Positions 3,301-51,420 of a stretch of DNA of 54,126 bases are shown here, in pieces. The stretch is from a virus. Position 1 is the stretch's first letter. Each line of letters starts with the position of its first letter. A program made the position numbers and the translations under genes. The stretch covers positions 1-54,126 of the IMG/VR virus record IMGVR_UViG_3300027911_000017; one strand, given 5' to 3'. Under the pieces are notes generated by a model. The model made no database searches, was not told where the DNA came from, and saw only the letters and a program-made list of their open reading frames with translations.

Positions 3301-3301
3301 C

Positions 3302-19233: not shown

Positions 19234-19394
19234 TACTCCTCCAGTTTCCAGACATGTAAAAGACGCTTAGGATAGGCTATACCGTGTTCCTCGAAAAGTC
19301 CCGTTCGATAGATACACTTCCACCCCTTAAGCATCCAGTCCTTCTCTACCTGATTCCTCTCCTCGTCCGTACAAACAGAGTAGTCTATTTTCAT
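19233..19394 (-). CDS. Small hypothetical protein between polymerase and 96-residue gene
   Basis: 53 residues (starts MKIDYSVCTDEERN, ends LLHVWKLEE). It is linked on both sides: ATGA overlap with the polymerase stop and TAATG with the next start. Tight coupling and normal protein composition (aromatic, charged) support a real gene. Function unknown. Confidence 0.65.
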   Translation of the reverse strand: MKIDYSVCTDEERNQVEKDWMLKGWKCIYRTGLFEEHGIAYPKRLLHVWKLEE

Positions 19395-28004: not shown

Positions 28005-28279
28005 AGAACACCTCCTCTCTGTATAATTCTCTGATACAACGAACGTGTTATTCGCGTCCTCTTTGGCTCCTGACAAATATACAGATACCAACCTGCGGGA
28101 AGCTTTGTTCGTGCAAGGTATTCCAACTTTGCACTACGAGAAATACCCGGAACTTGGAGTAAGGCTACATTAAAAACAGGATCATCCATACATAGCTTTG
28201 TCAAATACGTCAAAGCCCGTACTCCTGTATATGTCCTTATCCCTTTCTGCACTAAAACTATCCGTGTTCTTGTGCTCAC
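28001..28279 (-). CDS. Small hypothetical protein of amidoligase cluster
   Basis: 92 residues from GTG 28279, which overlaps the ATP-grasp stop as GTGA behind GGAGGG. Basic, mixed alpha/beta (TYLTKLCMDDPVFNVALLQV, GWYLYICQEPKRTR). Coupled on both sides. Function unknown. Confidence 0.6.
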   Translation of the reverse strand: MSTRTRIVLVQKGIRTYTGVRALTYLTKLCMDDPVFNVALLQVPGISRSAKLEYLARTKLPAGWYLYICQEPKRTRITRSLYQRIIQRGGVL

Positions 28280-30041: not shown

Positions 30042-30063
30042 TTAGTCATAACCTCCTTTAAGC

Positions 30064-31629
30064 TTAGAAGCCATCATCTCTACGAATCACACGTTTCTTT
30101 CGTCTCTGAACTGGATTCACGTAATCAGGTATCCCTGCTCTAGCAGGCCTTCCGGGATATGGAGGCACAGGATCATATCTCACATTGTCTACTACATGTT
30201 CCTCTGGTAGATTGAATATATCTCTTGGTCCTACCTCTTTCGCCACCTCCTTTTTACCAACTTGTTCTACGCCTTGTTCACCCATGATGAGTTTGACAAC
30301 TCGCCCTAATTTAGAGGGGGCTTGAACCTCATTCTTTTTGAAGACTTCTACTTTATCCCATTTAGTCCAATCTGTCGTGTGAAACTCACTTGCCCTACAC
30401 AAGGGTAACAAACTCGAATTTGCCAAAAGTTTATTGAACGTCTTACAGCTTTTTAAGCAAGTATTTATATAGCTAGGCACGTGTAAAGTAGCCACTCCTA
30501 AGTTATTAGATACGGGGAAGAGAGAGAGCCTAAACCCTTCAGCAGCAAATGCCTTAACTAAGGCATTTCTATCCAGCGGATAGGAATGATACAATGTAGG
30601 CGTAGCCACGGAAGGAGTCATCTCTACTCCAAAAGAAAATCTATAGCTCAGCAACTCCGCTCCTACATCTGGTAAATGCCCTAAACTGTGCGGTTGTATA
30701 TGCACAAGAGAAACGTCCTTAGGTAAGGTGTAGGGTGCCCACGTAACAGAAGGTGCTTTATAACTTACAAAAGGCATTCCATGTACAAAATGATTGAACA
30801 ACCCCCTACATGTCTCAAAAGAGGGGGCTAAAGCACTTGGAATAAAGTAATGAGAAGAATCAGAACAAATACCCACATTACCTGACCAGACACCCCAACG
30901 ATACTTAAAATCAGTCATGTCTTCCTTCGGTTTACCTATTCGTTTAACTGTTTCAAAGGCAATAGCCGCGTCTTGATCTTTATCTTTGTACCTTTCAAGC
31001 AAAGTAGCGGAGTCTGGAAGAGAAGCAGCCCCTATGCCTGCAAATAGCTTTCCATCATGTACTGCAAGCTTTGCTACCGTTAAAACATAAAAGGTAAGCC
31101 ACGGACTTGCCAGATATGTAGGGGTAGTTCTATACTCATACCCATATACCTGTGCGCGAAAGTCACCCCACTTTCCGTATTTTGTACCCTGCCGTCTTGC
31201 CAAAAAATAATTTTTAAGTAGCACCCCTTCAGCCATCAATCGAGAAGTCAGATTATCCATAATACGGATTTCTGTATCTCTCGTCGGACGCCTACGACCA
31301 AAGTGTATATGGCCTCCACAGCCATCCTTACCGTTGAAGGCAGTAGCCATCCAGTGTAAGTTCATGACTTCATCTTTATGGAAAGCTCCCATCCATTGCA
31401 AGGCTTCTGCTAAGGAAGCAGTAACCTCTAACGCAGAACGGGAAGGAATCGTGCGTAACTCTGCTTGCCGTCCCGCCATATCACAACCAAAAGCTCTGGT
31501 AGTGTTCAAACCTAGAGTTTCAGCGTGTATATACGAACCCGCAGCATTTACAAGGATAAACTCAGGATCTGCTCCTATCTTAAAATGGTTCACTAACCTT
31601 GGATGCTGCGTGTAGGACGTTAACCGCAT
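30064..31629 (-). CDS. COOH-NH2 ligase type 2 (glutamine-synthetase-like amidoligase) 1
   Basis: 521 residues. GADPEF (19-24), GCGGHIHFG (103-111) and YGYEYRT (162-168) are the signature boxes of phiEco32-type COOH-NH2 ligases: acidic metal ligands, the HxH glycine loop, and the substrate-binding E-x-R. These enzymes have a glutamine-synthetase-like fold and form amide or peptide bonds with ATP. The C-terminal 150 residues are an extra basic tail. First of two ligases in this cluster; 22 bases separate it from the amidotransferase gene. Confidence 0.8.
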   Translation of the reverse strand: MRLTSYTQHPRLVNHFKIGADPEFILVNAAGSYIHAETLGLNTTRAFGCDMAGRQAELRTIPSRSALEVTASLAEALQWMGAFHKDEVMNLHWMATAFNGKDGCGGHIHFGRRRPTRDTEIRIMDNLTSRLMAEGVLLKNYFLARRQGTKYGKWGDFRAQVYGYEYRTTPTYLASPWLTFYVLTVAKLAVHDGKLFAGIGAASLPDSATLLERYKDKDQDAAIAFETVKRIGKPKEDMTDFKYRWGVWSGNVGICSDSSHYFIPSALAPSFETCRGLFNHFVHGMPFVSYKAPSVTWAPYTLPKDVSLVHIQPHSLGHLPDVGAELLSYRFSFGVEMTPSVATPTLYHSYPLDRNALVKAFAAEGFRLSLFPVSNNLGVATLHVPSYINTCLKSCKTFNKLLANSSLLPLCRASEFHTTDWTKWDKVEVFKKNEVQAPSKLGRVVKLIMGEQGVEQVGKKEVAKEVGPRDIFNLPEEHVVDNVRYDPVPPYPGRPARAGIPDYVNPVQRRKKRVIRRDDGF

Positions 31630-32159
31630 TACTTAACCCCCTTTTTAACCAATTCTAAAGCCCCAGCTAATGCACTCGGCTGTGCTTCTGACTCACACCA
31701 TACCTGTTGACATCCTTTAGTACACAAAGGAACGCCCCACTTAGTTCGTGTAGTCTTAAAATCACAAATAACACACATTGAATCTCGATCAAGCAGAGCA
31801 AATGCAGCTACCAAGACTTGATAGCATCCTTGTTTGTCGTTATGCTCTTTTCTAGCAGCAGGATTCTCGCAATCTGTATTTCCGCAACAACGACACTCCG
31901 CTATCAATCCGGGCATAGGACCAGACCACGTTGTTAGACACCAAAATCTATACTCCCAAAACTCGAAATCAGGCCCACTATACGGAGTATACTCTAGTGT
32001 GTGCCACCCCAATCTACCAGAAGTATCCAAAGGCATTGTAAAACTCTTAAACTGACTGACAACAGGAGGAATAACCAAGACAGGCTTGGGGCTTGTCCTC
32101 CACCCATGAGGCATCATTTTCTGTGTAATAACTGATCTTGGTAATCTTATCTCAGCCAC
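31629..32159 (-). CDS. Cys-rich zinc-binding hypothetical protein
   Basis: 176 residues from GTG 32159 (GGAGG upstream). The second half has many Cys/His: CRCCGNTDC, then CVIC and CTKGCQQVWC, suggesting two or more zinc sites. The first half is Trp/Tyr-rich. Its stop overlaps the ligase start (TAATG). It could carry or hold a substrate of the ligases; unproven. Confidence 0.6.
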   Translation of the reverse strand: MAEIRLPRSVITQKMMPHGWRTSPKPVLVIPPVVSQFKSFTMPLDTSGRLGWHTLEYTPYSGPDFEFWEYRFWCLTTWSGPMPGLIAECRCCGNTDCENPAARKEHNDKQGCYQVLVAAFALLDRDSMCVICDFKTTRTKWGVPLCTKGCQQVWCESEAQPSALAGALELVKKGVK

Positions 32160-32431
32160 ATTGCCTCCAAAAAGTCTTAGGGGCTTACCCTCCCACTTAC
32201 AGATAAGCCCTCCCTAAGTCACCGCTTCCCTTTCTTTTTCGGGCCATGTTCGTCAACACAGTAGGAAGTTAGGCTGCTTTGAGTTCCCTAAGGAACATAC
32301 AAGCTTCATACCCTAGTAAAGCTCGTCAGTTACCCAAGCTTTACACTACATCACCCCGCATAAACGTCTACTCATTGGCTTGAGCGACGCAGGGTGAATC
32401 TCTTAATAGAAGGATTAGACTCAATCCTTGC
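32160..32431 (-). other. Gene-free structured 272-base region
   Basis: Minus-strand leader of the Cys-rich protein and ligase genes. Stems: AAGGATT/AATCCTT just after the 32432 stop; GTAAAGCT/AGCTTTAC with a 13-base loop; GTTCC/GGAAC; GGGCTTA/TAAGCCC just before the ribosome site. A 16-codon frame starting MARKRKGSG lies inside but has no ribosome site. No tRNA features found. Possibly a regulatory leader. Confidence 0.45.
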
Positions 32432-32932
32432 CTATACATCAAACTCCAACCCCGGCATCTTGTGTTCATGCCCCATGTTTTTAGTTAAGTACACAACCTC
32501 ATTACCCGACTTGGCATTTCTAAACAATTCGCTTGCCTGCCAGCCTCTCTTAAGACCCAAAGACCACCAGTAGCCCTGCAAGCCCCGTTCAGGACGAACC
32601 ACCTGTGTCATAAGTAGGCTGCCAAATCCCGAAGTATAGGTGGCTTCTTCAATAATCTTCAGTGCTGCGTCATAGTTCTGTTCAGTTGCAGGGGCGACGT
32701 TGATGTACCCAATAACCAAAACCGCGCAACACGCGGGCATTTGCTGTGCCCTAAAGTGTACGGTAAAGTCCTTTGTAGCAAACGCACAAGATATTTGCTC
32801 CCAATCTAGGCTAGGTTTAGATGCGCTAGGCACTGTCTCACATTCAAACCCTCTATCTTCACACAGCTTCTTCAACACATCCACAAACACGTTGGGATGC
32901 AAAACACCATTTATTGCTGGATGTAAATCCAT
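32432..32932 (-). CDS. Hypothetical protein
   Basis: 166 residues from ATG 32932, overlapping the GGCT stop as TGATG. Mixed alpha/beta with ACCAVLVIGYIN and a Trp-rich GLQGYWWSLGLKRGW. It is coupled to the cyclotransferase gene and followed by the structured gap. No family recognised. Confidence 0.55.
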   Translation of the reverse strand: MDLHPAINGVLHPNVFVDVLKKLCEDRGFECETVPSASKPSLDWEQISCAFATKDFTVHFRAQQMPACCAVLVIGYINVAPATEQNYDAALKIIEEATYTSGFGSLLMTQVVRPERGLQGYWWSLGLKRGWQASELFRNAKSGNEVVYLTKNMGHEHKMPGLEFDV

Positions 32933-33321
32933 CAAAACCTCCCATTCTTAATCACGTTTTCTTGCGGAAAATGTCTATAGGTATGCTCATAAACCCAAGC
33001 AGAGGCAAACTCATCATCCACAAGCTTTCGAGTATAGGTAATCCCATTGTTCTCGATTTGGTCAAGCCACGGCCAGAGCTTCTCAGGAATTTCCCAAAGC
33101 TCCCCGTGTACCTTATCCTCAAGATTGGCAGTAAACCTTAAGCCAACTCCGCTATACTCTCTGCCATCATTGGGATGCCCTTCATGGTCCCAGCGTCGGC
33201 CAATGCCGTAGAGAACAGCGCTATTAAGCGTGGCCTCTTGGAGGAACTTAGCTCCATAATGCGATACGTCCAGCTCGTATCCGCGCTTTAGAATGCCGTA
33301 AACGAATAGCCTGTTGTTCAT
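32932..33321 (-). CDS. Gamma-glutamylcyclotransferase-like (GGCT/AIG2) protein
   Basis: 129 residues from ATG 33321 (AAAGGAAAAC upstream). The family's FVYGILKRG (6-14) forms the substrate-binding loop, VHGELWEI (71-78) follows, and WLDQIE ends with Glu90 in the place of the catalytic Glu. GGCT enzymes release pyroglutamate from gamma-glutamyl amides. In amidoligase clusters they are thought to trim or reverse the ligated product. Confidence 0.8.
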   Translation of the reverse strand: MNNRLFVYGILKRGYELDVSHYGAKFLQEATLNSAVLYGIGRRWDHEGHPNDGREYSGVGLRFTANLEDKVHGELWEIPEKLWPWLDQIENNGITYTRKLVDDEFASAWVYEHTYRHFPQENVIKNGRF

Positions 33322-33339
33322 TGTTTTCCTTTCCATACC

Positions 33340-33659
33340 CCACAGACTCATACAGACCGTCACTTACAAGGTTGTGTCCTAATTTGTCCTACACCAGAGT
33401 TATGTATTTGCCCCGCCGGACAGCTATTGATCCCTTACTATAAACGCGCGTGAACGGAGTTACTGGTACTAAGTACGTTCACAAAGTCACGCTCATAAGG
33501 GTAGTCTCCGCACTTTAATGTTGACAAGTCACCCTCCCTGACTCAGAAGATAAGTTGCTCCAAGAAGGTGTTAACCTCCTCCCAACCCGTAAGGGCCGCT
33601 GGAACAGTTATCGCAAATTGCGTTAGCATCCTGAAATGACGGTCTGTATCAGTCTATGG
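33340..33659 (-). ncRNA. Candidate large structured RNA closed by a 23-base inverted repeat
   Basis: Arms at 33340-33362 and 33637-33659 match in 21 of 23 positions. On the minus-strand transcript one of the two differences becomes a G-U pair, favouring RNA pairing in that direction. The enclosed 274 bases hold GTGAACG/CGTTCAC with an inner GTAC/GTAC hairpin (33450-33482), AGTCA/TGACT (33527-33543), CCC-GTAA-GGG, and a TGTCCTA direct repeat. No open frame of note. It could be a regulatory RNA, an intron relic or a small mobile repeat. Confidence 0.45.
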
Positions 33660-33875
33660 AGTTCCTTTCTCACATTTGGCAGCGGCTATATGACATTCTG
33701 CCCGCGTGCAAACATGGATACCCTTCATTTCTAATACCGCAGGTCTACCACACGTACAAGTCATGTCTGTGTCTAGCACACCTACCCCGGCACAGTAGTT
33801 ACACGCACCGTTCATAAAGTGGGCAAACACATCGCATATTTGCCTGCCTTTACACATTGGACATGGAAATTTCAC
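33654..33875 (-). CDS. Zinc-finger protein, DnaJ-type cysteine pattern
   Basis: 73 residues from GTG 33875, overlapping the ligase stop as GTGA after AGGGGG. Cys pairs: CPMC-KGRQIC, CNYC-AGVG, CTCG, then CTRAEC, resembling DnaJ-like zinc fingers. Coupled to the second ligase. Role unknown, possibly holding a ligation target. Confidence 0.6.
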   Translation of the reverse strand: MKFPCPMCKGRQICDVFAHFMNGACNYCAGVGVLDTDMTCTCGRPAVLEMKGIHVCTRAECHIAAAKCEKGTP

Positions 33876-34873
33876 AATCCCCCTTGATCCCACCTTGCCC
33901 AAGCTACTTTTGCATCGGGTATCCAGTCATCCTGAAAGTGCCAATTCCTTGCAAAATCTTCCGGGTAGGGCACAACAGCTTCCAAGCCAACATTGCATAA
34001 TGCAAAAACACGCTCTATACAGGCCTCTTCCGCAGCGGGATACGTCTGCTTCAACAGCCACGTAAACAAACCCCGATTCCGCCATATAATCCGGCGAGCT
34101 TGATCCACATCGCAGCTTTGAATCGTATGAATTGTCTCCTTCTCATCCCCCGCCCAAAGCTTCCAGTAACGCGAACGGGCAAACTGTACGCAAGTCCTGC
34201 CAATATCCCAAGTCAACTGCATAATCCGTGGAGAAGCCAACCACCAATTCGACAGAGTACGGTATTCAACTCCATATCCTGTGGCATAATTAGGTGCCCT
34301 GTACTCTCCCGGTAAGCCATAGAACTTCCGTCGAACAGGATCATCCCAGTTTTGAGCCACGCCTACCGCCCAGACGCCGAGAATCATATCCAATGTCTTG
34401 ATAATCTTCTCGTAATTTGGCTTAGTCCTCTTCCACGTTCCAAAGTGCATATGCCCACCCGCAAAGCGGAACTTCAACTGTCGAGCATTGGGTACCTTCA
34501 TTCCCGCTAAGTTATAGGCATTAAAACTCGGCTGACAACCAAGCTCTACGTGTGCGTGCTGTGCCGTTTGAAGTGTTTCTACTGGAATCTTAACCACATT
34601 CTTCAGAGTCAATCGTCCTTGCGGGTTAAACAGCTTAACCTTATCCGCCAACAGCATTAGCCGATCTCGCGTTTCTTTAATAAGATTATTCTGACAGTAA
34701 TGGGGCTGAAGATACTTCCATTCAGCTTGGAAGCCATCCCAATACAACAACGCACGACCCGTGTTGGGTGGCAGGAAGTTAAACGCGGGAATCAGCTCTT
34801 CCCCTGCCATAACAAACATCTCCGGGTCAGCCCCAAAGGTTAATTGCTTCCTTTTAGCTAGGACACCTTCCAT
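33872..34873 (-). CDS. COOH-NH2 ligase type 2 (amidoligase) 2
   Basis: 333 residues from ATG 34873 (AAGGTGAG upstream; an ATG at 34888 is in frame but has a weak site). GADPEMF (14-20), AGGHMHFG (138-145) and GYGVEYRT (199-206) repeat the three boxes of the ligase at 30064-31629. Apart from these boxes the two proteins are clearly different, so they probably use different substrates. It lacks the basic C-terminal extension. Confidence 0.8.
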   Translation of the reverse strand: MEGVLAKRKQLTFGADPEMFVMAGEELIPAFNFLPPNTGRALLYWDGFQAEWKYLQPHYCQNNLIKETRDRLMLLADKVKLFNPQGRLTLKNVVKIPVETLQTAQHAHVELGCQPSFNAYNLAGMKVPNARQLKFRFAGGHMHFGTWKRTKPNYEKIIKTLDMILGVWAVGVAQNWDDPVRRKFYGLPGEYRAPNYATGYGVEYRTLSNWWLASPRIMQLTWDIGRTCVQFARSRYWKLWAGDEKETIHTIQSCDVDQARRIIWRNRGLFTWLLKQTYPAAEEACIERVFALCNVGLEAVVPYPEDFARNWHFQDDWIPDAKVAWARWDQGGL

Positions 34874-34899
34874 ACTCTCACCTTCCATTCTTGGCTAAA

Positions 34900-35547
34900 T
34901 TAGTGCTTCCCAAAGCTGTACATCAGCCTTAGTTGCACATTACCCGATACTGCCGTATTCCTTGCGCATGTGACGGGGCCTAAGCTACCATCACACGCTG
35001 GATTGCCCTGCTCAAGGATACGTCCCAGTTCATTAACCAAGCCAAAATGTAAGCACCCGTGATTAGAACAGCCAAGAGTAGTGTCAACTTCAAAAACTCC
35101 CCCGCGAAAGTGCGATGTTTCAAGCCCATTTCTCACCCCGTTGTGAAACTCTTGCTGATAAGCAAAGGTAAGCTGCGTATCAGAGCCTACTTTAACAGTC
35201 ACTCCACCGAGTACATAATCCGCGTGCTTCTTAGCTAAAGTTACCTGATATCGGGTATTTTCGTATCCGGATGTCAGGCCTAGCTTGGAAGCCACCCAGA
35301 GGGTCCCAGTAGAGATAGATTCATTAGCCCATCCATTGCCAAGAGCTATGTGATTCTCTAGGCTAAGAGTATCTCTACTCAAGAAAGTTATGCGCTTGAT
35401 TGCAGCACTTATCTCCACACTAGGACCCAAGCTAAGATTTGGTCCTATTTGACCCTGAGCACCGACGGCTAATTTAACTTGTCCGTATGTAGGGCAGGCA
35501 GCTAGAACACTAGCAATCATTCCAAGTAGAAGCTTTTTCTTGGTCAT
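34900..35547 (-). CDS. Exported beta-rich protein, possible lipoprotein
   Basis: 215 residues from ATG 35547 (ATGA overlap with the previous stop). Signal peptide KKKLLLGMIASVLAACPTYG, containing a possible LAAC lipobox; cleavage after TYG is the alternative. The rest alternates hydrophobic and polar residues like outer-membrane strands and ends LRLMYSFGKH, an aromatic end typical of beta barrels. It may alter the host surface (superinfection exclusion) or be an envelope target of the nearby ligases. Confidence 0.55.
   Translation of the reverse strand: MTKKKLLLGMIASVLAACPTYGQVKLAVGAQGQIGPNLSLGPSVEISAAIKRITFLSRDTLSLENHIALGNGWANESISTGTLWVASKLGLTSGYENTRYQVTLAKKHADYVLGGVTVKVGSDTQLTFAYQQEFHNGVRNGLETSHFRGGVFEVDTTLGCSNHGCLHFGLVNELGRILEQGNPACDGSLGPVTCARNTAVSGNVQLRLMYSFGKH
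35292..35306 (-). repeat. GGACCC-N-GGGTGG hairpin motif, copy 12
   Basis: Reverse orientation, loop TCT, in the exported beta-rich protein gene. Confidence 0.75.
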
Positions 35548-35738
35548 TTCTCCCATTTCACTTTCCCGGTGCCGTGGCAGTCGGGGCAATCAGTAGGCCC
35601 CCGGTAAAATCCTAGGAATCCTGCTCCACCGCACGTCCCGCACACCGCTTCCGGCTGCGATTTAACATCTACTTTAAGGAACCGTTGTGGATTGAATCTC
35701 ATGCAAGTTTCACATCCGCAACTAGAGTCGTGCATCAT
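35544..35738 (-). CDS. Small zinc-finger protein, DnaJ-like
   Basis: 64 residues from ATG 35738 (AAGGAG upstream, ATGA overlap). CGCETC at the start, then CGTCGGAGF and CPDCHGTGKV, the C-x-x-C-x-G-x-G repeat of DnaJ zinc fingers. Likely RNA- or protein-binding; no partner known. Confidence 0.6.
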   Translation of the reverse strand: MMHDSSCGCETCMRFNPQRFLKVDVKSQPEAVCGTCGGAGFLGFYRGPTDCPDCHGTGKVKWEK

Positions 35739-37391: not shown

Positions 37392-37928
37392 CTACTTAGC
37401 TTTGTACTCCCCTGTACTGTTCAAAGGAAATGGACTTACAATTACTCTTGGTTCCACATAAACAGGATCAGGTTCACCTTTTGGGCCTGCACAGATTACC
37501 CATGTGCCTTCCGCTGTGGGTGGCATAAATAAGCCATTGGGTTCAGCCTGTGGCATAGCGTGGGAACGAACATTAGCAGCAGCTACCTGCCAATACTGCG
37601 GATTCGAAAATTGAACTCCATAAGGTAATCCATACCCAATGGAGTCACAAAGATGCCATAATTTGCCATTCATATCCGGTACATAAGCAAATGTAGCAAG
37701 GTTACTGTCCCGCATTTCATAGAGCTTGCGAACCAGCTTCATTTCCGTAAAATTTGTTATTCCCGGCATACCTACTTGTTTACTAGCTTCTGACAGCATA
37801 CTTGCTTGTTGCTGAGATACTTTTTCGTCGGTGGAGGGACTTTTACCACATCCAATTAGACTAAAAGCTACAGCGCAAGCCAACGCTAATCCTAGACTAG
37901 TCAATAACGACTTTTTTGTCTTCATCAT
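37392..37928 (-). CDS. Lipoprotein
   Basis: 178 residues. Signal peptide with lipobox LIGC-GK at about 24-29, so the mature protein should carry lipid at that Cys. The mature domain has a conserved-looking core MPGITNFTEMKLVRKLYEMRD and YGLPYGVQFSNPQYW, then a Pro-rich end. Coupled (ATGA) to a one-span membrane protein, so a spanin-like or envelope pair is possible; the globular size speaks against a simple o-spanin. Confidence 0.6.
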   Translation of the reverse strand: MMKTKKSLLTSLGLALACAVAFSLIGCGKSPSTDEKVSQQQASMLSEASKQVGMPGITNFTEMKLVRKLYEMRDSNLATFAYVPDMNGKLWHLCDSIGYGLPYGVQFSNPQYWQVAAANVRSHAMPQAEPNGLFMPPTAEGTWVICAGPKGEPDPVYVEPRVIVSPFPLNSTGEYKAK

Positions 37929-38302
37929 CGCTCCGTCTGCAAACGAAGCAAGAAACTCTGCAAATTCTCAGGCAGCTTTGTCTCATCCACCTGACTTGCT
38001 TCGGTTAGAATAGTCTGTCGTAAAGCCGCTTTTTGATCTCCTATAGCTGAATCATAAGCTAAACGAAGTCGTGTAAGATACTCCGTTTTACCTTGAATAT
38101 AGCTCGCGGTATTTACAAAGACTTCCCGTTCAGCATTAGCCCGCTTAGGTGCCCAGAACTTATAGGTGAACAAATCCCCACCCGTTGCCAAGAATCCAAG
38201 CCCAAAAGTAACTACGCCTATTGCAAGAACTCCACCAACTATACGTGGTAGCGTCCACATAGCCTCTTTCGAAACATCCCGAAAGTCATCCCTATAAGTC
38301 AT
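37925..38302 (-). CDS. Single-span membrane protein with periplasmic helical domain
   Basis: 125 residues. Membrane segment about 20-41 (IVGGVLAIGVVTFGLGFLA), then a helical domain REVFVNTASYIQGKTEYLTRLRLAY...LPENLQSFLLRL. This domain pattern (TxxYxxGK then helices) recurs in small phage and bacterial membrane proteins of unknown role. Partner of the lipoprotein gene by ATGA coupling. Confidence 0.6.
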   Translation of the reverse strand: MTYRDDFRDVSKEAMWTLPRIVGGVLAIGVVTFGLGFLATGGDLFTYKFWAPKRANAEREVFVNTASYIQGKTEYLTRLRLAYDSAIGDQKAALRQTILTEASQVDETKLPENLQSFLLRLQTER

Positions 38303-39766: not shown

Positions 39767-39876
39767 GTTCCTATCCTTAAGCAATCGCTCACCTCTCCCC
39801 AAGGGACTGATTAGAGCGAAAGCTTGAAGATATAACAAGTCTTTACCTTGAGCACTCCTATTGTATTACCTGCTCC

Positions 39877-40030
39877 AACTCCCACTCCCACTCCAACTCC
39901 TACTCCTACTCCTACTCCCACTCCAACTCCCACTCCTACTCCAACTCCTACTCCTACTCCTACTCCCACTCCAACTCCCACTCCTACTCCTACTCCAACT
40001 CCCACTCCCACTCCAACTCCCACTCTCACT
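39877..40030. repeat. Hexanucleotide tandem repeat (ACTCCN)
   Basis: About 25 uninterrupted copies of a six-base unit, ACTCCC, ACTCCA or ACTCCT, ending with one ACTCTC. The only differences are at the last base. On the plus strand it would encode Pro-Thr repeats, on the minus strand Gly-Val repeats. Neither frame has a ribosome site and both flanks are ordinary minus-strand sequence, so it is treated as non-coding. Copy number should vary by slippage. Confidence 0.9.
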
Positions 40031-43270: not shown

Positions 43271-43711
43271 ATGGGAAGACCGGAGAAGCTAGAAAACTGG
43301 CTGATTGAGGCTGCGGAGGTTATGGCCCGTGAGGGTGTTACTCTTAGGGAAGCCGCAGGGATGCTTAATCAGGATGTCACCGCAGATGAGTGTGATGTCA
43401 TTGTACGCCGTAAGAGTTTCCATAGATTACTTTGGGAGTCTAGGTTAAGGTACTTTAATCAGTTAGCTGTTGACCCAAACTTTAAGAAAGATACTATAAT
43501 AGGCAAGCTCGTCACCCTAGCTCAACGGTTGGAAGACCGGGGAGACTATGATAAGGCAGCCGAAGCCATCCTTAAGGCTGCCAAGGTCGCTGGGTTCGTG
43601 GGTCCGGAATCAACTGTAAGTGTGTTTGGAGAGCTGAGTCAGGCTGATTTGGACAGTATTAGACGCAAAGTTGAAGAGGGTGCAATAGGTGTCAAGTCAA
43701 GACCGAACTGA
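43271..43711 (+). CDS. terS: Terminase small subunit
   Basis: 146 residues. N-terminal helix-turn-helix-like part (WLIEAAEVMAREGVTLREAAGML), then helices (LVTLAQRLEDRGDYDKAAEAILKAAKVAGF), a usual small-terminase arrangement of DNA binding plus oligomerisation. It precedes the large subunit with a 23-base overlap. It recognises phage DNA and starts packaging. Confidence 0.75.
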   Translation: MGRPEKLENWLIEAAEVMAREGVTLREAAGMLNQDVTADECDVIVRRKSFHRLLWESRLRYFNQLAVDPNFKKDTIIGKLVTLAQRLEDRGDYDKAAEAILKAAKVAGFVGPESTVSVFGELSQADLDSIRRKVEEGAIGVKSRPN

Positions 43712-45236
43712 AAAGATCACTCAAGCCCTCGGTGAACTTGAACGTATGTCCCCTCAGGAGCAGCTTGCTGCTCTAGACATCCTTCAGGAACGTAGGGTAA
43801 AGAAGAACTATATTCGTTACTTCCAACCGTGGGAGCCGGATCAGGCTGAGGCGGTTAAGCAGTTTACCCAAGACATTAAGGTATTTGGCTTGCTCGGGGG
43901 AAATAGAAGTGGAAAGACCATCCTCGGAGCTTTCATCTGTGTTGCGTGGTGTCTCGGAAAAGATTACTTCAAGGGCGAACCAGCTTGGAAATGGGTGGAA
44001 AATCTCCCTATTCCTAAGGGACCAGTCAACGTCTGGGTCGTTGGAGTGGACTTTCCTACTCTGCGCGATGTTATATGGCATGAAAAATTACGTTTTGGAA
44101 AGACCCATCCTGCTTTCCTCCCTGACGATTCCAATGTCGTTAGTAACATCAGGGACGGTGACTTCCAGATTTTCTTCAAGAATGGAACAATTCTTACAGG
44201 AAAGTCTGCGGAAGCTGGACGAGAAAAGTTTCAAGGGGCAAGCGTAGACCTCATTTGGATTGATGAAGAATGCGAAAAGGATGTCTACGATGAGTGCTAT
44301 CAGCGAACCATTGACTGTTCGGGCAAGATTCTTCTTACGCAGACACCCCTTACAGATATCAACTCTGGAGTACGAGAACCTTGGGTATTCGACCTCTATG
44401 AGGAATGGCTCGCAGGAGATAAGTCCCTTTGTTTCTGCCAGCTCTCAACTCTTAACAGCCCTTTTATCTCCGCTAAAGACAAAGAAGAAACACTAAAGAA
44501 GTGGGAAGGCACGCCAGAAGAAGGCGCACGGCTATATGGCAAGTTCGTTCGCAGATCAGGGCTTGTATACCCAAACTTTAGCAAAGCTGTCCATATTGTC
44601 AAGCCATTCTCGATACCACGATATTGGACGAGAGTCGTATCTATTGATCCCGCTGCTACTGGGATTACTGCTGGCCTGTGGCTCGCTATTAGTCCTGAGG
44701 GTGATTATTTTGCTTTCAGAGAGTACTATGAGCGGGAAAAGACAGTAATTGAACACGCCAAGAGTTTAATGATGCTCGTAGCTGGGGAGCCCATTGACTA
44801 TTGGTTACTGGACCCCACATGGGGTGGACAACGAAATGCCGAGAATCACAAGAATGGAGCACAGCTTTATCGAGAAGCTGGAATCCCCGTTAGACTGCCC
44901 GATGTTGGGAAAGACTTTGGACTCAATGTTAGCCGTGAGTACATCACCGCTACGGTCACTCCGGGCTCAAGACATCCGAAATTTTATTGTTTTGAAGGGC
45001 TTCCGAACTTTGAACATGAAATAACTCACTATACTTGGGATACTTTTGGTAAGGGTGAGCAGAAGGGGCTCAGCAAAGAAAAGCCTCGTAAACGGAATGA
45101 CCACCTCATTAACGCTATGCAGTATGCCATGTGCCTTCGTTTGAAGGGGGCAAAGCGACGAGGTGAAACGGATGGATGGTTTGGAATTGATCCTGAAGCT
45201 GCTAAGAAAAGAACAGCTTTAGTATCGTACACTTAA
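43689..45236 (+). CDS. terL: Terminase large subunit
   Basis: 515 residues from GTG 43689 (GAGGG upstream). ATPase: Walker A GGNRSGKT (70-77), Walker B VDLIWIDEE (187-195), coupling motif LLTQTP (215-220). Nuclease: RVVSIDPAATG with Asp320, YWLLDPTWGG with Asp375, and NDHLINAMQYA with Asp471. It drives DNA into the procapsid and cuts it. Copy 16 of the hairpin motif lies in the codons around Asp375. Confidence 0.92.
   Translation: MSSQDRTEKITQALGELERMSPQEQLAALDILQERRVKKNYIRYFQPWEPDQAEAVKQFTQDIKVFGLLGGNRSGKTILGAFICVAWCLGKDYFKGEPAWKWVENLPIPKGPVNVWVVGVDFPTLRDVIWHEKLRFGKTHPAFLPDDSNVVSNIRDGDFQIFFKNGTILTGKSAEAGREKFQGASVDLIWIDEECEKDVYDECYQRTIDCSGKILLTQTPLTDINSGVREPWVFDLYEEWLAGDKSLCFCQLSTLNSPFISAKDKEETLKKWEGTPEEGARLYGKFVRRSGLVYPNFSKAVHIVKPFSIPRYWTRVVSIDPAATGITAGLWLAISPEGDYFAFREYYEREKTVIEHAKSLMMLVAGEPIDYWLLDPTWGGQRNAENHKNGAQLYREAGIPVRLPDVGKDFGLNVSREYITATVTPGSRHPKFYCFEGLPNFEHEITHYTWDTFGKGEQKGLSKEKPRKRNDHLINAMQYAMCLRLKGAKRRGETDGWFGIDPEAAKKRTALVSYT
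44810..44827 (+). repeat. GGACCC-N-GGGTGG hairpin motif, copy 16
   Basis: Loop CACATG, stem extended by one C-G pair, in terL. Confidence 0.7.
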
Positions 45237-45245
45237 GGAGAGAAC

Positions 45246-45449
45246 ATGATTGTTTCATTTATTACTGGACAGGCTACTGGCTTGGCAATTGGTTTTGTAG
45301 CGGGAGCTTTCACTCCCAGTATTGGACGTAAGATTAAGTCCTTTTGGGTGAAGGAAACGCAGAGTGGCATCAAAGCAGTTGAAGCAAAGGCACAGGCTGT
45401 TTCTACGACTGTGAAGACTGATGTTTCAAAGGTTGCTTCTAAACTCTAA
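45246..45449 (+). CDS. Small membrane protein
   Basis: 67 residues, AAGGAGAG site. Glycine-containing hydrophobic N-terminus (FITGQATGLAIGFVAGAF), then a Lys-rich amphipathic helix (AVEAKAQAVSTTVKTDVSKV). One-span, holin- or anchor-like. Its stop overlaps the next start (TAATG). Confidence 0.55.
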   Translation: MIVSFITGQATGLAIGFVAGAFTPSIGRKIKSFWVKETQSGIKAVEAKAQAVSTTVKTDVSKVASKL

Positions 45450-46315
45450 TGTTTACACGTCTTTTACTGCTGAGTGGACTATTGCTAGGGGCTACGTGTC
45501 TTTCAAGTCCCTTAAAGGCACAGCAGCAGAGCTTCCCGGGTGGAGGTAGCGGAGGTTGTGGTACATTACCTACTACTCCTAATGGGGTGGCACAGGTGTG
45601 CACTTCTACGCCTTCTGGGGGTGTAGGGCAAGCAGGTGTTTTTACATTGGTAGGAACGGTAGGACGTACTGTTTCAGGGGCTTCCGATACGATTCTTTGT
45701 TCGGGTACCCCAAATGATAGTGGAAATTATGTACTGTACACCAATGCAGGGGCAGTAGCTGTTACACTTGGGCAGGCAGGTACGAGCTGCTTCACGAATA
45801 ATTTTCGGTTCGGAATCAAGACTGGAACAGGTGCTACAGCCACTATTACTCCCGGAGGTGGACAAATAGCCGGAAGTAATGGTACTTTAGGGGCTAACTT
45901 AGTTGTTCCTCCTTCAAGTACGGCAATTTGTTATAGCTGGGATAATGCGAATTGGCAATGTTCAGTCATTCCTCCCGGAGTTTCTCAACCGTTCAGCAGC
46001 TTGACCACTACCTGTGCAGGCGCACAGACGTGGGCGCTTGGCAGCGCGTGGGTAGCAAACGCTTCCATCACCATCACAGGAAGCTGCACGCTAAATCTAA
46101 CGAATCCACTCGCAGGCGGGAATTATGTGCTGGCAGTCACGCAAGGCTCGGGCGGTAGTCACACGCTGGCTCTTGGCACAGGTTGCATATGGAAAGTAAG
46201 TGGCGGCGGAGCGGGAGCAATCACTCCTAGTACGACGGCGGGAGCGATTGACGTGCTGGCATTCACCTACGACGGTACAAATTGCTATGCGAATTACAAC
46301 AAAAACTTTAATTAG
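45449..46315 (+). CDS. Exported Gly/Ser/Thr-rich beta protein
   Basis: 288 residues. Clear signal peptide (TRLLLLSGLLLGATCLSS, cleavage near KAQ), then low-charge beta sequence with many Gly, Thr, Ser and paired Cys (CGTLPTTPNG, ITGSCTLNLTNPL), like fibre proteins. A Sec signal on a fibre-like protein is unusual, since tail parts assemble in the cytoplasm. It may be a secreted adhesion or receptor-masking protein. Confidence 0.6.
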   Translation: MFTRLLLLSGLLLGATCLSSPLKAQQQSFPGGGSGGCGTLPTTPNGVAQVCTSTPSGGVGQAGVFTLVGTVGRTVSGASDTILCSGTPNDSGNYVLYTNAGAVAVTLGQAGTSCFTNNFRFGIKTGTGATATITPGGGQIAGSNGTLGANLVVPPSSTAICYSWDNANWQCSVIPPGVSQPFSSLTTTCAGAQTWALGSAWVANASITITGSCTLNLTNPLAGGNYVLAVTQGSGGSHTLALGTGCIWKVSGGGAGAITPSTTAGAIDVLAFTYDGTNCYANYNKNFN

Positions 46316-47015
46316 CCTGCTTTGCTGCCTGTTGACGGCCAACTGGACGCTGGCGCAGAACGCTGCGTTCTTTGGGTCGAATGTAGGGGTGGCGGGTGGG
46401 GGTGGATTTACTTATGTGCAATCTGTGGCTCCCGCGAGGGTCACAGGAACCTCAATCACATGCAATATGACATCCACCGTGGCGGGAAATTTAATCGGGA
46501 TAACAGCATTCACCCCCAGTGGAGGCGTAACCGGAAATTCTGTGACTGATAGTGCGAGCGAAACTTACATTTTCCCTTCCGGGCAGCATGGCTATCTATT
46601 CACTTATTTCAAGGAAAACAATGTTGGCGGCGTGACGACGATAACCTTCAGCAGCACTTCTAGCCAAATCACAGGAGCGATCTGCTTCGAATACAGCCCG
46701 GGAAGCGGTTCTCAAGATGGAAATTTAATTGATGGAAACCTGCAAAGCGGAACCACATACACAAGCGGAGCACTGACTGGAACATCTGGAACGAGTGATC
46801 TACTTCTCGGATTCGTTATAAATCGAACTAGTTCTAGTGTGACGCTTACTCCCAACGCTCCATTTTCTGTCAGAAAGGAATATGTGGATGCAGGTGCTGG
46901 TGATCGCTACAGTATGGTTGATGCTCTAAATACATCTCCAACTAGTGTGGCAAACTCAGGAAGTTTTTCGAGTGGAACAAATTCTAATGACGCTTCGATT
47001 ATCGCTTTTAAGTAG
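46287..47015 (+). CDS. Exported beta-rich protein 2
   Basis: 242 residues from ATG 46287, overlapping the previous gene by 29 bases; weak ribosome site. Signal peptide ITTKTLISLLCCLLTANWTLA before QNA. The mature part is Ser/Thr/Gly-rich with a concanavalin-like strand pattern (TITFSSTSSQITGAICFEYS, SDLLLGFVINRTSSS). Second of three consecutive exported proteins. Base composition is more GC-rich than the flanking genes. Confidence 0.6.
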   Translation: MRITTKTLISLLCCLLTANWTLAQNAAFFGSNVGVAGGGGFTYVQSVAPARVTGTSITCNMTSTVAGNLIGITAFTPSGGVTGNSVTDSASETYIFPSGQHGYLFTYFKENNVGGVTTITFSSTSSQITGAICFEYSPGSGSQDGNLIDGNLQSGTTYTSGALTGTSGTSDLLLGFVINRTSSSVTLTPNAPFSVRKEYVDAGAGDRYSMVDALNTSPTSVANSGSFSSGTNSNDASIIAFK

Positions 47016-48612
47016 CCTTGTTATCTGTGCCCTTGCAGCCATTCCTGCGCGAGCACAGGTTGGCACCGTCCTCGGCGCACCGGGAACGTGTGTTCGTACA
47101 TTCTACATTGACTTTGCAACTGGCTCCGACGCAAACAATGGAACGGCAAAAGGAACTCCGTGGCAGCACAGTCCCTATATGACGGGATGGACGGGTACCT
47201 ACACTCACGCAGCAGGCGACTGCGAGATATTTAAGGGCGGCGTGACATGGACAAATGGAGCGATGCCGCTTTATGTGCAAGCGGCTGGAAGTTCCAGCCA
47301 CGAAGATTATTACGGCGTGGACCAGACGTGGTACACGGGTGGAGCGTGGGCTAGGCCAATCTTCGATTGCCAGAGCACGGTGGGATGCAATGTAGTCATT
47401 CATCAGGCAGGCGGAGAATCTTATATTACCTATGACAGCTTAGAGCTTCGCGGCGCGTGGCTTGCAGCCAATGTGAACGGCTGGACTTTCTATTCGAGTG
47501 ATGGTGCGGGAAACACGATCCTGAATAACCTCTACATCCACAACTGGAGAATGTCCCATACGTGGACAAATGATTCGGCAGTCGGTGGAATCTATTTCAA
47601 CACAGATACAGGCTCTTTCGATGGAAACATAGTCCAAAACACTCTCATTGATAATAGCGACGGTGGCTACATGGCAACTGGAGACGGTTCAGTTCAGACG
47701 GCCAGTGCTGGAGGTGTTGCGGTCAGATCGCCACAAGATTTAGTTTTTAACGAAATCCGCAATGTTAGTTCCTTCGTGCTGCACGGTGGAAGAAACGTGC
47801 ACGATAACTTCCTTCATGATTCGGTTTCTTCGTGGGATGGTACATATCACACGAATACTTTTTATATAGATTCTTGGCAGAACGGAACGATTACCATTCC
47901 TGAGTATGTATATCGTAATAGAATCGTAAACTCAAACGCAAATGCAGCAGAATTATACCCCAGTCCATGCTACTTTGCTTCTCAAGTATTGACAATCACG
48001 GAATACTATTTTGACAACGTGGTTATGCACTCATCTAATTACGGGGTAGATATTGATGCCAATCAAACTGGATGCGGTAATAACACAGCCAATCTATATT
48101 TTTATAATAACACAATTCAAATCCCTAGTTCTAATTTAACAGGCTGCGCCCGTGCGACGCCGCGATCTGGAACGAAGATCAACAATGTGATTTGGACGAA
48201 TAATCACTGTATCTATGACAGTGGTGGTGCGGTAGATTTCAGCAATGCCACTTCCAGCAGCCAGACAACCAGCATAATCGAGTCAAACGCTAACGCCACG
48301 ACCTACGGCTATTCCTTCGTCAGTACTGGCTCAACGCTTAATTACGCACCGACAAACGCAACCTGTAATGGCAACTCTGGCGCATCCACCTGCACAATTT
48401 CCAACGGCACCAATCTCAACTCCACATGCTCAGGATCGCCACTCAGCCCAAATCTGTGTGAGGACATTAATCTGGTTGGTAGACCTTCGGCGTGGGACAT
48501 TGGCGCGTATCAGTATTCATCCGGTGGTGGAGGCGGAGGGTGTCCGTGCGGCGTTCCGGTAACTTCTTTTCCTTATTGGGTAAAACAACCATTAGAAATT
48601 TGGGTACATTAA
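46987..48612 (+). CDS. Exported right-handed beta-helix protein
   Basis: 541 residues from ATG 46987 (overlap 29 bases). Signal peptide SLLSSLVICALAAIPARA before QVG. FYIDFATGSDANNGTAKGTPW is the usual opening of pectate-lyase-type parallel beta-helix proteins; Asn-rich coils follow (NTILNNLYIHNW, NIVQNTLIDNS, NNTANLYFYNNT). The C-terminus has a Gly run and CPCG. A polysaccharide lyase or depolymerase acting outside the cytoplasm is likely; catalytic residues cannot be named from sequence alone. Confidence 0.65.
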   Translation: MTLRLSLLSSLVICALAAIPARAQVGTVLGAPGTCVRTFYIDFATGSDANNGTAKGTPWQHSPYMTGWTGTYTHAAGDCEIFKGGVTWTNGAMPLYVQAAGSSSHEDYYGVDQTWYTGGAWARPIFDCQSTVGCNVVIHQAGGESYITYDSLELRGAWLAANVNGWTFYSSDGAGNTILNNLYIHNWRMSHTWTNDSAVGGIYFNTDTGSFDGNIVQNTLIDNSDGGYMATGDGSVQTASAGGVAVRSPQDLVFNEIRNVSSFVLHGGRNVHDNFLHDSVSSWDGTYHTNTFYIDSWQNGTITIPEYVYRNRIVNSNANAAELYPSPCYFASQVLTITEYYFDNVVMHSSNYGVDIDANQTGCGNNTANLYFYNNTIQIPSSNLTGCARATPRSGTKINNVIWTNNHCIYDSGGAVDFSNATSSSQTTSIIESNANATTYGYSFVSTGSTLNYAPTNATCNGNSGASTCTISNGTNLNSTCSGSPLSPNLCEDINLVGRPSAWDIGAYQYSSGGGGGGCPCGVPVTSFPYWVKQPLEIWVH

Positions 48613-49119
48613 ATGGCACTCTATAGAGGGGAGCATGTATATCCCCAAGTAGCTCATTTTCAAACGACGCAAGCCCCCTCTTTTCCAGTAGCAGGAGATG
48701 TCTGGTATGATGTATCTTCTAAGACTCTTCTAGCTAATATAAACGGAACGGTAGTAAGTCTTGGTGGAGGGGCTATTGCTTCTGTCAACCTAACAGGACA
48801 GACAGGGACAATAGGTAGTACAACCTTATTTGCTGTTCCTTCCAATGGAGCAGGTATCTATCAAGTCTTTGCCGATGTTATTGTCACTACCGCAGGTACA
48901 GGCGGAACCGTAGCAGTTAATGTGAGCTGGAACAATGGCACCACAACTGCGGGGTTAAACAGCGCAGCCTTCCCCCTAACCTCTCAAGGTGAACAAGCTG
49001 CCCTACTTGGAAACTTTTATTCAACGGGAAGTCAGAATATAACCTACAGTACTTCAGTTGTAGGAGCAACAGGAAGTCCAATCTACGCATTGAGACTGAG
49101 ACTGATCTATCTAGGATAA
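48613..49119 (+). CDS. Small fibre-like structural protein
   Basis: 168 residues, start directly after the preceding stop. N-terminal APSFPVAGDVWYDVSSKTLLANING is the short collar seen at the head of many fibre proteins; the rest is a beta sandwich ending ALRLRLIYLG. Probably a virion surface protein. Confidence 0.6.
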   Translation: MALYRGEHVYPQVAHFQTTQAPSFPVAGDVWYDVSSKTLLANINGTVVSLGGGAIASVNLTGQTGTIGSTTLFAVPSNGAGIYQVFADVIVTTAGTGGTVAVNVSWNNGTTTAGLNSAAFPLTSQGEQAALLGNFYSTGSQNITYSTSVVGATGSPIYALRLRLIYLG

Positions 49120-49122
49120 CAT

Positions 49123-49455
49123 GTGAAGCTAATCCGAATTCCATACTGGTACTTGCTGTTGGGTCCTACATTACTGGGAGCATTGGGCTTTCTCTTAAAT
49201 GCCTCGGTTATGGCGGCAAACCACGGCCAGATGCCTGTATTGATTCCGGGGGGCTGTGGAATGGATGTTACGGTAGCTGATGCGCTCCATTCCTGTATGA
49301 CTGCTACCACACACCTTAAGTTTCTCGCGGACTGGCTTGTCATTAAAGATATGGGAGTAGCGAGTCCGGGAGATTTTCTTGAATGGGCAGATGATGCAGC
49401 TTTAGTTCCTTGTTTAGCGGCATGGATAGCTCTGATTTTCAAAGAGTTAAACTAG
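49123..49455 (+). CDS. DUF5317-like membrane protein
   Basis: 110 residues from GTG 49123. Hydrophobic start (IPYWYLLLGPTLLGALGFLLN), GQMPVLIPGGC, then THLKFLADWLVI and a C-terminal hydrophobic helix. The order LLN...ANHGQMPV...THLKFLADW recalls DUF5317 membrane proteins. Two spans; function unknown. Confidence 0.5.
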   Translation: MKLIRIPYWYLLLGPTLLGALGFLLNASVMAANHGQMPVLIPGGCGMDVTVADALHSCMTATTHLKFLADWLVIKDMGVASPGDFLEWADDAALVPCLAAWIALIFKELN

Positions 49456-49463
49456 GAGAATAC

Positions 49464-50078
49464 ATGTCAGCTAGACCTATTGCATACTTTGTTCGGCATG
49501 GAGAAACTTCTGGAAATGCTGCGAATACCTTTAGGGGAAAGATTGACTTTCCTCTGACGGATGTGGGTAAGCAACAGGCTAAGGAAGTAGGAAAGTTCTT
49601 CAAGAGTCTTGCTATTAGTGCAGTATATGCTTCTCCTAAGAAACGCACTATGGACACCGCAGAAGCTATCGCACTTCCCAAGCAACTGAAGATTCAAACA
49701 GTAGAGGCCTTTAAGCCTATTGATGTTGGCTTTTTATCCGGTCAACCCAAAGATGAGCATACAGATGTAATGGATTACTTCGATAAGAATCCCCATGAAA
49801 AGATACCTATGGGAGAATCCATTAACGAGTTTCGAGCACGAACTCAACCGCCTCTTAAGAAACTATTAGTTGAGGGGGCTCAAGCAAAGGACCCCGTAGT
49901 TGGAGTTGTTCATTCCAGTATCATACATGAAGTCAATCATATTGTCTCTGGGGATCATAATCAAACTCTAGTCAAACCCGGAGGCATTATTGGCGTGTTT
50001 AAGCATCCAACTAAAGGTTTAGAGATCAAGGCCTTACTACATCCTGAAAAGGAAGAACAGGTACCTTATCATGGCTGA
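49464..50078 (+). CDS. Histidine phosphatase (phosphoglycerate-mutase-like)
   Basis: 204 residues from ATG 49464 (TAGGAGAATAC). FVRHGETSGN (9-18) with catalytic His12, Arg11, and the second His in VVHSSIIHEV (about 158). YASPKKRTMDTAEAI supplies the phosphate-pocket Arg. Acts on a phosphate ester or phosphoprotein in the cytoplasm. Odd in a virion module; it may be a metabolic cargo gene. Confidence 0.8.
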   Translation: MSARPIAYFVRHGETSGNAANTFRGKIDFPLTDVGKQQAKEVGKFFKSLAISAVYASPKKRTMDTAEAIALPKQLKIQTVEAFKPIDVGFLSGQPKDEHTDVMDYFDKNPHEKIPMGESINEFRARTQPPLKKLLVEGAQAKDPVVGVVHSSIIHEVNHIVSGDHNQTLVKPGGIIGVFKHPTKGLEIKALLHPEKEEQVPYHG

Positions 50079-50263: not shown

Positions 50264-50902
50264 ATGGCTATTCCTGCACAGAACGTAACATGGTATGGAC
50301 CCGCCCTTGCTCAGGGTCAGCTTCAATCTCAGGGTGGTATTTCTGGATCGCAATCCAAGGCAGTTGTAGGTTCGGCTACCTTCGTGGGTGACGGGGCCAC
50401 GACTACGGCAACTTTGAACTGGATTGATGGTGTTCAGAAGCCCTTTCAGACAAACGTGGTTATTCCTGTATCCTCGGTTACAGCTCCGGCTACTATTGGG
50501 GGCGTAGCAAACCAAGCGGTGTATACAGGCGTTGGTGCCTATGGTCAGTTGAAGGTAGGTCAGTCTATTACCTTCGGTGGCTTCACTAACGCGGGTAACA
50601 ACGGTACATTCACGATCAACGCGCTTACAACCTCAACCATTCAAGTCACAAACGCCTCCTCTGTGGCAGAAAGCAATCCTGCTGCTACTGTGACGTTTGC
50701 TATCGCTACAAGTGCTCTTGTGGGTGGTGTTGTACTCGCTCGCGCCATCGCAGGACCTTCCGGTGTTGCGGATACCGCTGCCAATACGATTACCTGCACT
50801 ATCTCTACTCTAACTCAAACAGGCGGAATTGTGACCTTCAGTGCGGCTCCTGCTAACGCAGCGACTTGCTCTGTTATCGTCGAACTCTTCCCCAGTAACT
50901 AA
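50264..50902 (+). CDS. Structural protein, Ig-like
   Basis: 212 residues, low charge, Ala/Thr/Gly/Val-rich. GYGQLKVGQSITFGGFTNAGNNGTF type repeats point to Ig-like or head-fibre domains. AAAGGAAAAA site upstream. Probably a head decoration or fibre protein. Confidence 0.6.
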   Translation: MAIPAQNVTWYGPALAQGQLQSQGGISGSQSKAVVGSATFVGDGATTTATLNWIDGVQKPFQTNVVIPVSSVTAPATIGGVANQAVYTGVGAYGQLKVGQSITFGGFTNAGNNGTFTINALTTSTIQVTNASSVAESNPAATVTFAIATSALVGGVVLARAIAGPSGVADTAANTITCTISTLTQTGGIVTFSAAPANAATCSVIVELFPSN

Positions 50903-50931
50903 CGGATAAAGGACAAGGAGACTAAAAGACT

Positions 50932-51420
50932 ATGCCTTTATTTCGTGACGAAAATCCCGCACTGGGACCAACAACTACCGTCAAAGAACTTTCTGGCTAT
51001 GGCTCGGCCACACCTGTCGTAGCTTATTATAAACCCGGTACTAGGGAAATTCTTGACATTCCACTTGCTCCCGCTGGTACTATCACACAGTGGGCCTATC
51101 AAGCTCCCTTTACTTGTCAAGTTGTGGGAATGAGACTAAACTGGACCGTGCAATCAACAGGTGCTGCTAACCTGTCGGTGGTTCGTGTTACAGCGGACTC
51201 GCTTGCTCCACAGGCAGCTAATGGTACGACAGTCATTCTTCTGACCTCGGCTGTTGTATCCCTGCAAGGAACTGCCAATACTCGACAGAACTTGACGCTT
51301 TCAACGGCATCGGGTTCTCCCCTTATCCTCAATCCCGGAGATCAAATTGGCCTCTTCTCCTCAGCCTCGGCTGCTGGTCTAGTTGGCAACCTTCAGATTG
51401 AGCTTGCTCAAATCGGATAA
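50932..51420 (+). CDS. Jelly-roll structural protein, paralogue of 52560
   Basis: 162 residues, GGAG site. Residues 50-162 form a beta sandwich: WAYQAPFTCQVVGMRL, NLSVVRVTADS, NPGDQIGLFSS, LQIELAQIG. The same order of blocks (APF.C, strand run, GD.I/L, final V-x-hydrophobic) is found in the gene at 52560-52967, so the two are probably related. Likely head fibre or decoration subunit. Confidence 0.55.
   Translation: MPLFRDENPALGPTTTVKELSGYGSATPVVAYYKPGTREILDIPLAPAGTITQWAYQAPFTCQVVGMRLNWTVQSTGAANLSVVRVTADSLAPQAANGTTVILLTSAVVSLQGTANTRQNLTLSTASGSPLILNPGDQIGLFSSASAAGLVGNLQIELAQIG

Follow-up and report, generated by a model that had tools for sequence, protein, structure and literature searches.

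Here we describe three overlapping open reading frames (ORF1, ORF2 and ORF3; positions 45449 to 48612, plus strand) in IMG/VR virus record IMGVR_UViG_3300027911_000017, whose full 54126 bases are referred to below as the window. The conclusion that they encode Sec-exported proteins of the fibre or spike type is well supported by their own sequences and by those of their relatives. Sister cassettes in other phages further suggest, more tentatively, that the three genes make up a Sec-exported tailspike/fibre-type cassette whose mature proteins may join the virions.

Three consecutive genes carry predicted signal peptides

ORF1 (45449–46315) encodes a protein of 288 amino acids, ORF2 (46287–47015) one of 242 and ORF3 (46987–48612) one of 541. 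Signal peptides were called by a simple rule and not by SignalP; the rule was positive in 2.2% of shuffled window N-termini (254/11800). In all three N-termini, an n-region precedes a hydrophobic core of 10 residues (Kyte-Doolittle mean, 2.5–2.8) and a small-x-small site followed by glutamine, as in Sec substrates of signal peptidase I. The predicted signal peptides comprise residues 1–24 of ORF1 (45449–45520; cleavage at SSPLKA/QQQ), 1–23 of ORF2 (46287–46355; NWTLA/QNA) and 1–23 of ORF3 (46987–47055; PARA/QVG). The KAQ, TLA-Q and ARA-Q patterns that an earlier note on this DNA had read as clear signal peptides were thus borne out, as was its description of three consecutive, mutually overlapping genes. 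Both the ORF1/ORF2 and the ORF2/ORF3 overlaps are 29 nucleotides long; ORF1 shares one nucleotide with the preceding stop codon, and ORF3 abuts the start of the next gene (48613). ORF2 is taken to start at 46287, which leaves the GTG at 46200 in the ORF list unneeded, and ORF3 to start at the ATG at 46987 rather than at the GTG at 46945. Across the 59 window genes counted, eight were positive by the rule, and three in a row is unusual.

These signals are conserved in relatives: the beta-helix gene, to which ORF3 corresponds, retains its signal peptide in practically every relative whose 5' end is intact, with identities of about 20–30%. The cysteines follow a related pattern. The mature ORF1, ORF2 and ORF3 proteins contain 10, 2 and 14 cysteines, respectively, and other tail-side proteins of the phage mostly have less than 0.5% cysteine. 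The C-terminal domain of ORF1 has four cysteines, compared with 0, 0 and 1 in homologues that lack a signal peptide, and a tailspike N-terminal domain described below has a PCxGC pair (two cysteines) in its exported copies and none in copies without a signal peptide. When all loci were considered, the cysteine number was even in 52 of the 68 signal peptide-bearing proteins with at least two cysteines (p 1.4e-5, which is optimistic since related proteins are not fully independent), as against 53 of 100 proteins without a signal peptide (p 0.62). Such an excess is what would be expected if disulfides arise after real export.

The hydrophobic N-termini could instead be chance features or internal hydrophobic plugs that do not function in export. 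The calls do rest on a heuristic rule, yet its low false-positive rate, the conservation of the signals in divergent proteins, their occurrence in runs and the gain and parity of cysteines make this explanation very improbable. The export of the three proteins that the earlier note envisaged is supported, at the level of sequence, by the conserved signal peptides, the extra cysteines and the even-cysteine excess.

Fibre-type and beta-helix homologies of the three proteins

Searches of Pfam, PHROGs and NCBIfam gave no match for any of the three proteins, and hence neither an N-terminal virion-attachment domain nor a muralytic or lysis domain; no enzyme family was matched in Pfam or NCBIfam. Direct scans of viral contigs returned no relatives of ORF1 or ORF2, and neither ORF2 nor ORF3 had a match among isolate phages.

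ORF1 appears to be a beta-rich protein of the fibre type. Its C-terminal domain (residues ~180–288) is homologous to phage fibre-like proteins, including those of C72C1 (E 8.7e-10), DSL-LC06 and LinZ_10. The gene of the C72C1 protein adjoins a DNA ejection gene, and another of the homologues is a Leptospira phage protein of 712 residues. The mature sequence of ORF2 was compared with a family of about 250 residues whose genes precede a beta-helix gene, giving E 0.002 with a hidden Markov model (HMM) and E 1.9e-4 with hhalign (shuffles, 0.06–0.87), which suggests with moderate confidence that ORF2 belongs to this beta-rich family.

Distant relatives of ORF3 came first from viral contigs, and the set was then extended by alignment. 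An HMM made from 11 of these phage relatives, with ORF3 left out, recovered ORF3 over nearly its full length at E 1.2e-27, and still did so at E 2.4e-18 after removal of the C-terminus with its WDIGAYQY motif, compared with E ~50 for shuffles. The family has an invariant asparagine at a spacing of about 30 residues (positions 344, 374/375, 405/406 and 434), and some relatives match the choice-of-anchor Q family (NF041518): L036/L005 at 34 bits against a cut-off of 25, L004 and L006 below the cut-off. ORF3 itself gave no match to NF041518 at E 0.1. It has in common with choice-of-anchor Q proteins the C-terminal WDIGAYQY motif, and differs from them in being encoded in a phage cassette. The asparagine ladder and the matches of the relatives suggest that ORF3 is probably a right-handed beta-helix, a tentative assignment supported by family homology. 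The earlier note's statement that one of the proteins is a beta-helix therefore stands as a matter of family membership, and structural confirmation was not obtained: AlphaFold models made from single sequences with no alignment were useless (predicted local distance difference test score, pLDDT, 44 for ORF1 and 32 for ORF3), and searches of the PDB with family profiles gave no match of weight.

In ORF3, WDIGAYQY is followed by a glycine linker and a short tail. Separately, we observed that signal peptide-bearing beta-helix proteins in L036, L037, L042, L049 and L065 end in a strand-like tail after a Gly/Ser linker (VQGSVTIK, VSGNATVR), and this tail is possibly a docking strand. The motif xVxGxxTIK was found at the C-terminus of 8 of 87 signal peptide-bearing proteins and 0 of 168 others, a pattern that was picked after inspection and is unused as evidence here.

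By the textbook account, tail spikes and fibres are virion parts that assemble in the cytoplasm and have no signal peptide. The C-terminal domain of ORF1 and the beta-helix-type family of ORF3 provide bodies homologous to those of phage fibres, and ORF1, ORF2 and ORF3 each carry a signal peptide.

The cassette recurs in other phages, in part with recognisable fibre domains

The order of a fibre-like gene, an ORF2-like gene and a beta-helix gene, all with signal peptides, was also found in the unrelated contigs L036, L041, L042, L046, L049 and L050, and L044 and L045 have a similar order with another protein in the middle (in L044, one with a laminin-G domain). Consecutive runs of three to seven signal peptide-bearing genes are common among such contigs. 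The longest runs over 23 loci sum to 69, whereas 43.9 is expected and none of 5000 permutations exceeded 56; since the loci were found via such genes, this clustering is a description of the cassette rather than an unbiased rate. Much as in the window, signal peptide-bearing genes adjoin terminase or portal-like genes in L044–L046 and G004 (neighbours named by eye).

Several of the exported proteins resemble tail fibres or tailspikes directly. In G004 (L060), a signal peptide-bearing protein of 644 amino acids (339–2273) is rich in tail-fibre repeats and matches the PHROG families for tail protein (2.4e-7) and tail fiber (2.6e-6). Its neighbour is a pectate-lyase-fold protein (PF12708 above cut-off) whose signal peptide-like N-terminus was noticed by eye and missed by the rule. 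A signal peptide-bearing protein of L068 also matches a PHROG tail fibre. Moreover, in L067, L070 and L068 the signal peptide is directly followed by a domain with which ordinary tailspikes and fibres, themselves lacking a signal peptide, begin (residues 1 to ~90), among them the tail spike of Xanthomonas phage PBR31 and proteins of Rhodoferax phage P26218, ctfPj964 (colanidase), ctNMl277 and DSL-LC05. In tailspikes without a signal peptide, such as that of PBR31, the domain begins at about residue 1–16. The N-terminal domain of such tailspikes is taken to bind the particle, and the fact that sister cassettes keep it behind a signal peptide argues that the exported proteins still reach virions. 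ORF3 has a beta-helix-type body comparable to that of the PBR31-type tailspikes, whereas these lack both the signal peptide and the cysteine pair of the N-terminal domain, and ORF1–3 lack that domain itself.

Tunturi_2 (PP885685; PMC11924767), which infects Tunturiibacter psychrotolerans X5P2 of the Acidobacteriota and is a podophage, provides a cultured parallel. Between 9754 and 22744 it has five genes with signal peptides, including an annotated tail fiber, a pectin lyase and a virion structural protein. Its gp12–gp17 resemble ORF1–3 as a contiguous group of signal peptide-bearing fibre, beta-helix (pectin lyase) and structural genes, and differ in that sequence homology to ORF1–3 is undetectable. 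The product of gp12 bears the same N-terminal domain relation, more weakly, to the tailspike of Serratia phage MTx (E 5e-4), and gp34, of 125 amino acids, is annotated as a tail fiber. Signal peptides and tail fibres go unmentioned in the main text of PMC11924767. The fibres of Tunturi_3, which infects the same host strain as Tunturi_2, and of Tunturi_4 have no signal peptide. The signal peptide therefore belongs to the strategy of the phage and not to the host, and a general need for it on Tunturiibacter hosts is ruled out.

The relation to fibres suggested by the earlier note is thus supported, both by the homology of the ORF1 C-terminal domain and by sister cassettes with tail fibres and tailspike N-terminal domains behind signal peptides. 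The same phages call into question its premise that export is not the norm for virion parts. We found no precedent for exported tail fibres in the open-access literature searched, which is no proof that there is none. One candidate precedent, PMC13314943, was set aside, its sole mention being a cited title on effector loading. Other phage proteins that use the host Sec pathway, such as signal peptide or signal-arrest-release (SAR) endolysins and T4 RI (PMC6116005, PMC8385771), resemble ORF1–3 in that respect, but they regulate or execute lysis, whereas ORF1–3 are of the fibre type and have no recognised lysis domain.

An exported-cargo slot follows the terminase gene

The three genes lie downstream of the terminase large subunit gene (43689–45236, plus; PF03237 and PF17289 above cut-off; PHROG 2, E 2.9e-29), which forms the upstream boundary of a variable slot and is followed by a gene for a small YtxH-like protein (45246–45449, plus) flanking the insertion. 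Next to ORF3, and within the insertion, is a gene for a 168-residue protein with no signal peptide (48613–49119, plus). Its N-terminus (MALxxGExVYP..WYDxSSK) is similar in a by-eye comparison to those of large fibre-like proteins of relatives (L014 6378 and L032 7805), and phmmer gave no match between it and the relatives. The downstream boundary is formed by a gene for a conserved membrane protein (49123–49455, plus) with homologues in L015, L017, L018, L026 and L027.

Contigs with related terminases (57–85% identity) mostly have a signal peptide-bearing gene directly after the terminase gene. The products of 10 such genes were tested by Pfam: eight are trypsin-like proteases (PF13365, above cut-off) and the remaining two are a DUF4148-like protein and a lipoprotein, so that L013–L032 present a variable exported-gene slot at this position. 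The slot is empty in L015, a 4-kb contig with an 85% identical terminase, where the YtxH homologue (3268–3450; phmmer E 3e-10) is directly followed by the homologue of the 49123 gene. From this we infer that 45449–49119 is an insertion in an exported-cargo slot, dispensable at this position. Downstream of the slot, nearly all of L013–L032 retain a histidine phosphatase gene (PF00300, E 2.5e-32; 49410–50078 in the window).

The earlier note had offered, as one option, a captured bacterial secretion cassette reused as fibres. A rival reading is that a host operon of exported surface proteins was captured and is carried as a passenger (moron) with no role in the particle. Choice-of-anchor Q beta-helix proteins are indeed also found as exported proteins in bacterial contigs (L007–L012), and the boundaries of the insertion relative to L015 are clean. 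However, the C-terminal domain of ORF1 matches phage proteins, one of them beside a DNA ejection protein, and in many phages the ordered cassette recurs close to genes for the portal, the adaptor or terminase. Phages also supply the best relatives, those in bacterial genomes being few and more distant. Capture seems to us unlikely. As for base composition, the earlier note had called the three genes more GC-rich than their neighbours. The GC content of ORF1 (51.0%), ORF2 (47.3%) and ORF3 (48.2%) does exceed the window mean of 46.5%, but the excess is weak: z exceeds 2 in just two 300-nucleotide stretches, and genes at 50264–51420 and at 53317 are equally GC-rich. A recent transfer marked by GC content is unsupported by this analysis.

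A more serious rival is that the exported proteins act free, secreted or surface-bound during infection, with fibre modules borrowed for binding; the earlier note's other option, secretion to degrade or coat host polysaccharide, is of this kind. Examples would be a polysaccharide depolymerase that aids the spread of progeny, or receptor-covering proteins that act against re-adsorption to debris and superinfection. For this phage the rival is kept in play by the slot, whose occupants elsewhere are signal peptide-bearing proteases, a DUF4148-like protein or a lipoprotein, or which is empty, together with a separate candidate tail fibre without a signal peptide (1408–3300, plus; 630 amino acids). 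The latter adjoins the adaptor gene and was proposed from position and composition, with no family match in PHROG or Pfam. ORF1–3 also have no recognised virion-attachment domain. On the other side, the tailspike N-terminal domain kept behind the signal peptide in sister cassettes would be unneeded by a free enzyme, and no full-length fibre gene without a signal peptide was recognised in Tunturi_2, G002 or G004. We consider free action outside the cell nearly as likely as assembly into virions.

Assembly of ORF1–3 into virions is the reading that we favour, tentatively. Several points weigh against it: the signal peptides were called by a simple rule; no attachment domain was recognised in the three proteins; the phage has a fibre candidate of its own; the closely related L015 has nothing in the slot; and in other relatives the slot has trypsin-like proteases or lipoproteins that are exported but have no obvious place in the virion. 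In addition, virion disulfides can form without export, as reported for phage Milano (PMC10811340), although this would leave the cysteine difference between proteins with and without signal peptides unexplained.

If the favoured reading is right, the fibre-type ORF1, the ~250-residue beta-rich module ORF2 and the beta-helix ORF3 would be made together from overlapping late-region genes. Host Sec would carry them out of the cytoplasm, signal peptidase I would cut the signal peptides and cysteine pairs would form disulfides in the periplasm. Once lysis breaches the inner membrane, the mature proteins might dock on particles to serve as receptor- or polysaccharide-binding spikes, and virion assembly would be divided between two compartments. 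In this phage, ORF1–3 would act as an accessory set, open to exchange, in addition to the fibre candidate at 1408–3300.

Other features of the window

The window has a podovirus-like gene set, with the terminase gene, an SU10-type adaptor gene (26–1219) and a minus-strand gene for DNA polymerase A. Of the earlier placement of the three genes between terminase and head genes, the first half holds, the terminase gene being directly upstream; no portal or capsid gene was identified within the window. The polymerase (PF00476) is part of a single protein (19391–21901, minus) that also contains a uracil-DNA-glycosylase domain (PF03167) and has a weak match to a 3'-5' exonuclease. A possible peptide-modification cluster was noticed by eye at 28276–34888 (minus), with ATP-grasp-like (28276), class II glutamine amidotransferase-like (29040), amidoligase-like (30064 and 33872) and gamma-glutamyl cyclotransferase-like (32932) members. 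Signal peptide-bearing proteins resembling small outer-membrane beta-barrels are encoded at 34900–35589 (minus) and in the cassette phages L005 (11259–11915) and L056 (17895–18566). A predicted lipoprotein (37392–37928, minus; lipobox IGC) adjoins a membrane protein (37925–38302), and a long Pro-Thr dipeptide repeat (PTPTPT...) lies at the start of an ORF (39848–40030). Finally, in L027 (15353–19091), three adjacent proteins of unequal length and without signal peptides have a common SLFxLYG-type C-terminal motif.

Implications for phage assembly

By analogy with Tunturi_2, Acidobacteriota are plausible hosts of the phage described here. Extending the argument to the cassette phages as a whole, it is quite possible, though we would put it a little less strongly than virion assembly in this phage, that soil phages of a widespread group, whose hosts would probably be mainly Acidobacteriota, build their virions in two compartments. 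Heads and tails would be made in the cytoplasm, whereas host-binding spikes and fibres would leave through Sec, lose their signal peptides, acquire disulfides in the periplasm and join the particles only at lysis. Tunturi_1 and Tunturi_2, on Tunturiibacter psychrotolerans, offer a cultured model pair in which to study whether spikes are exported. There is also a caution for soil viromes, in that signal peptide-bearing beta-helix genes labelled as 'auxiliary metabolic' polysaccharide lyases may be spikes. If many phages do export their spikes, where receptor-binding proteins fold and where they are attached would become a question, as would the role of disulfides as a means of stabilisation in acidic soil and the possibility that, ahead of lysis, unattached spikes cover the surface of the host or strip it.

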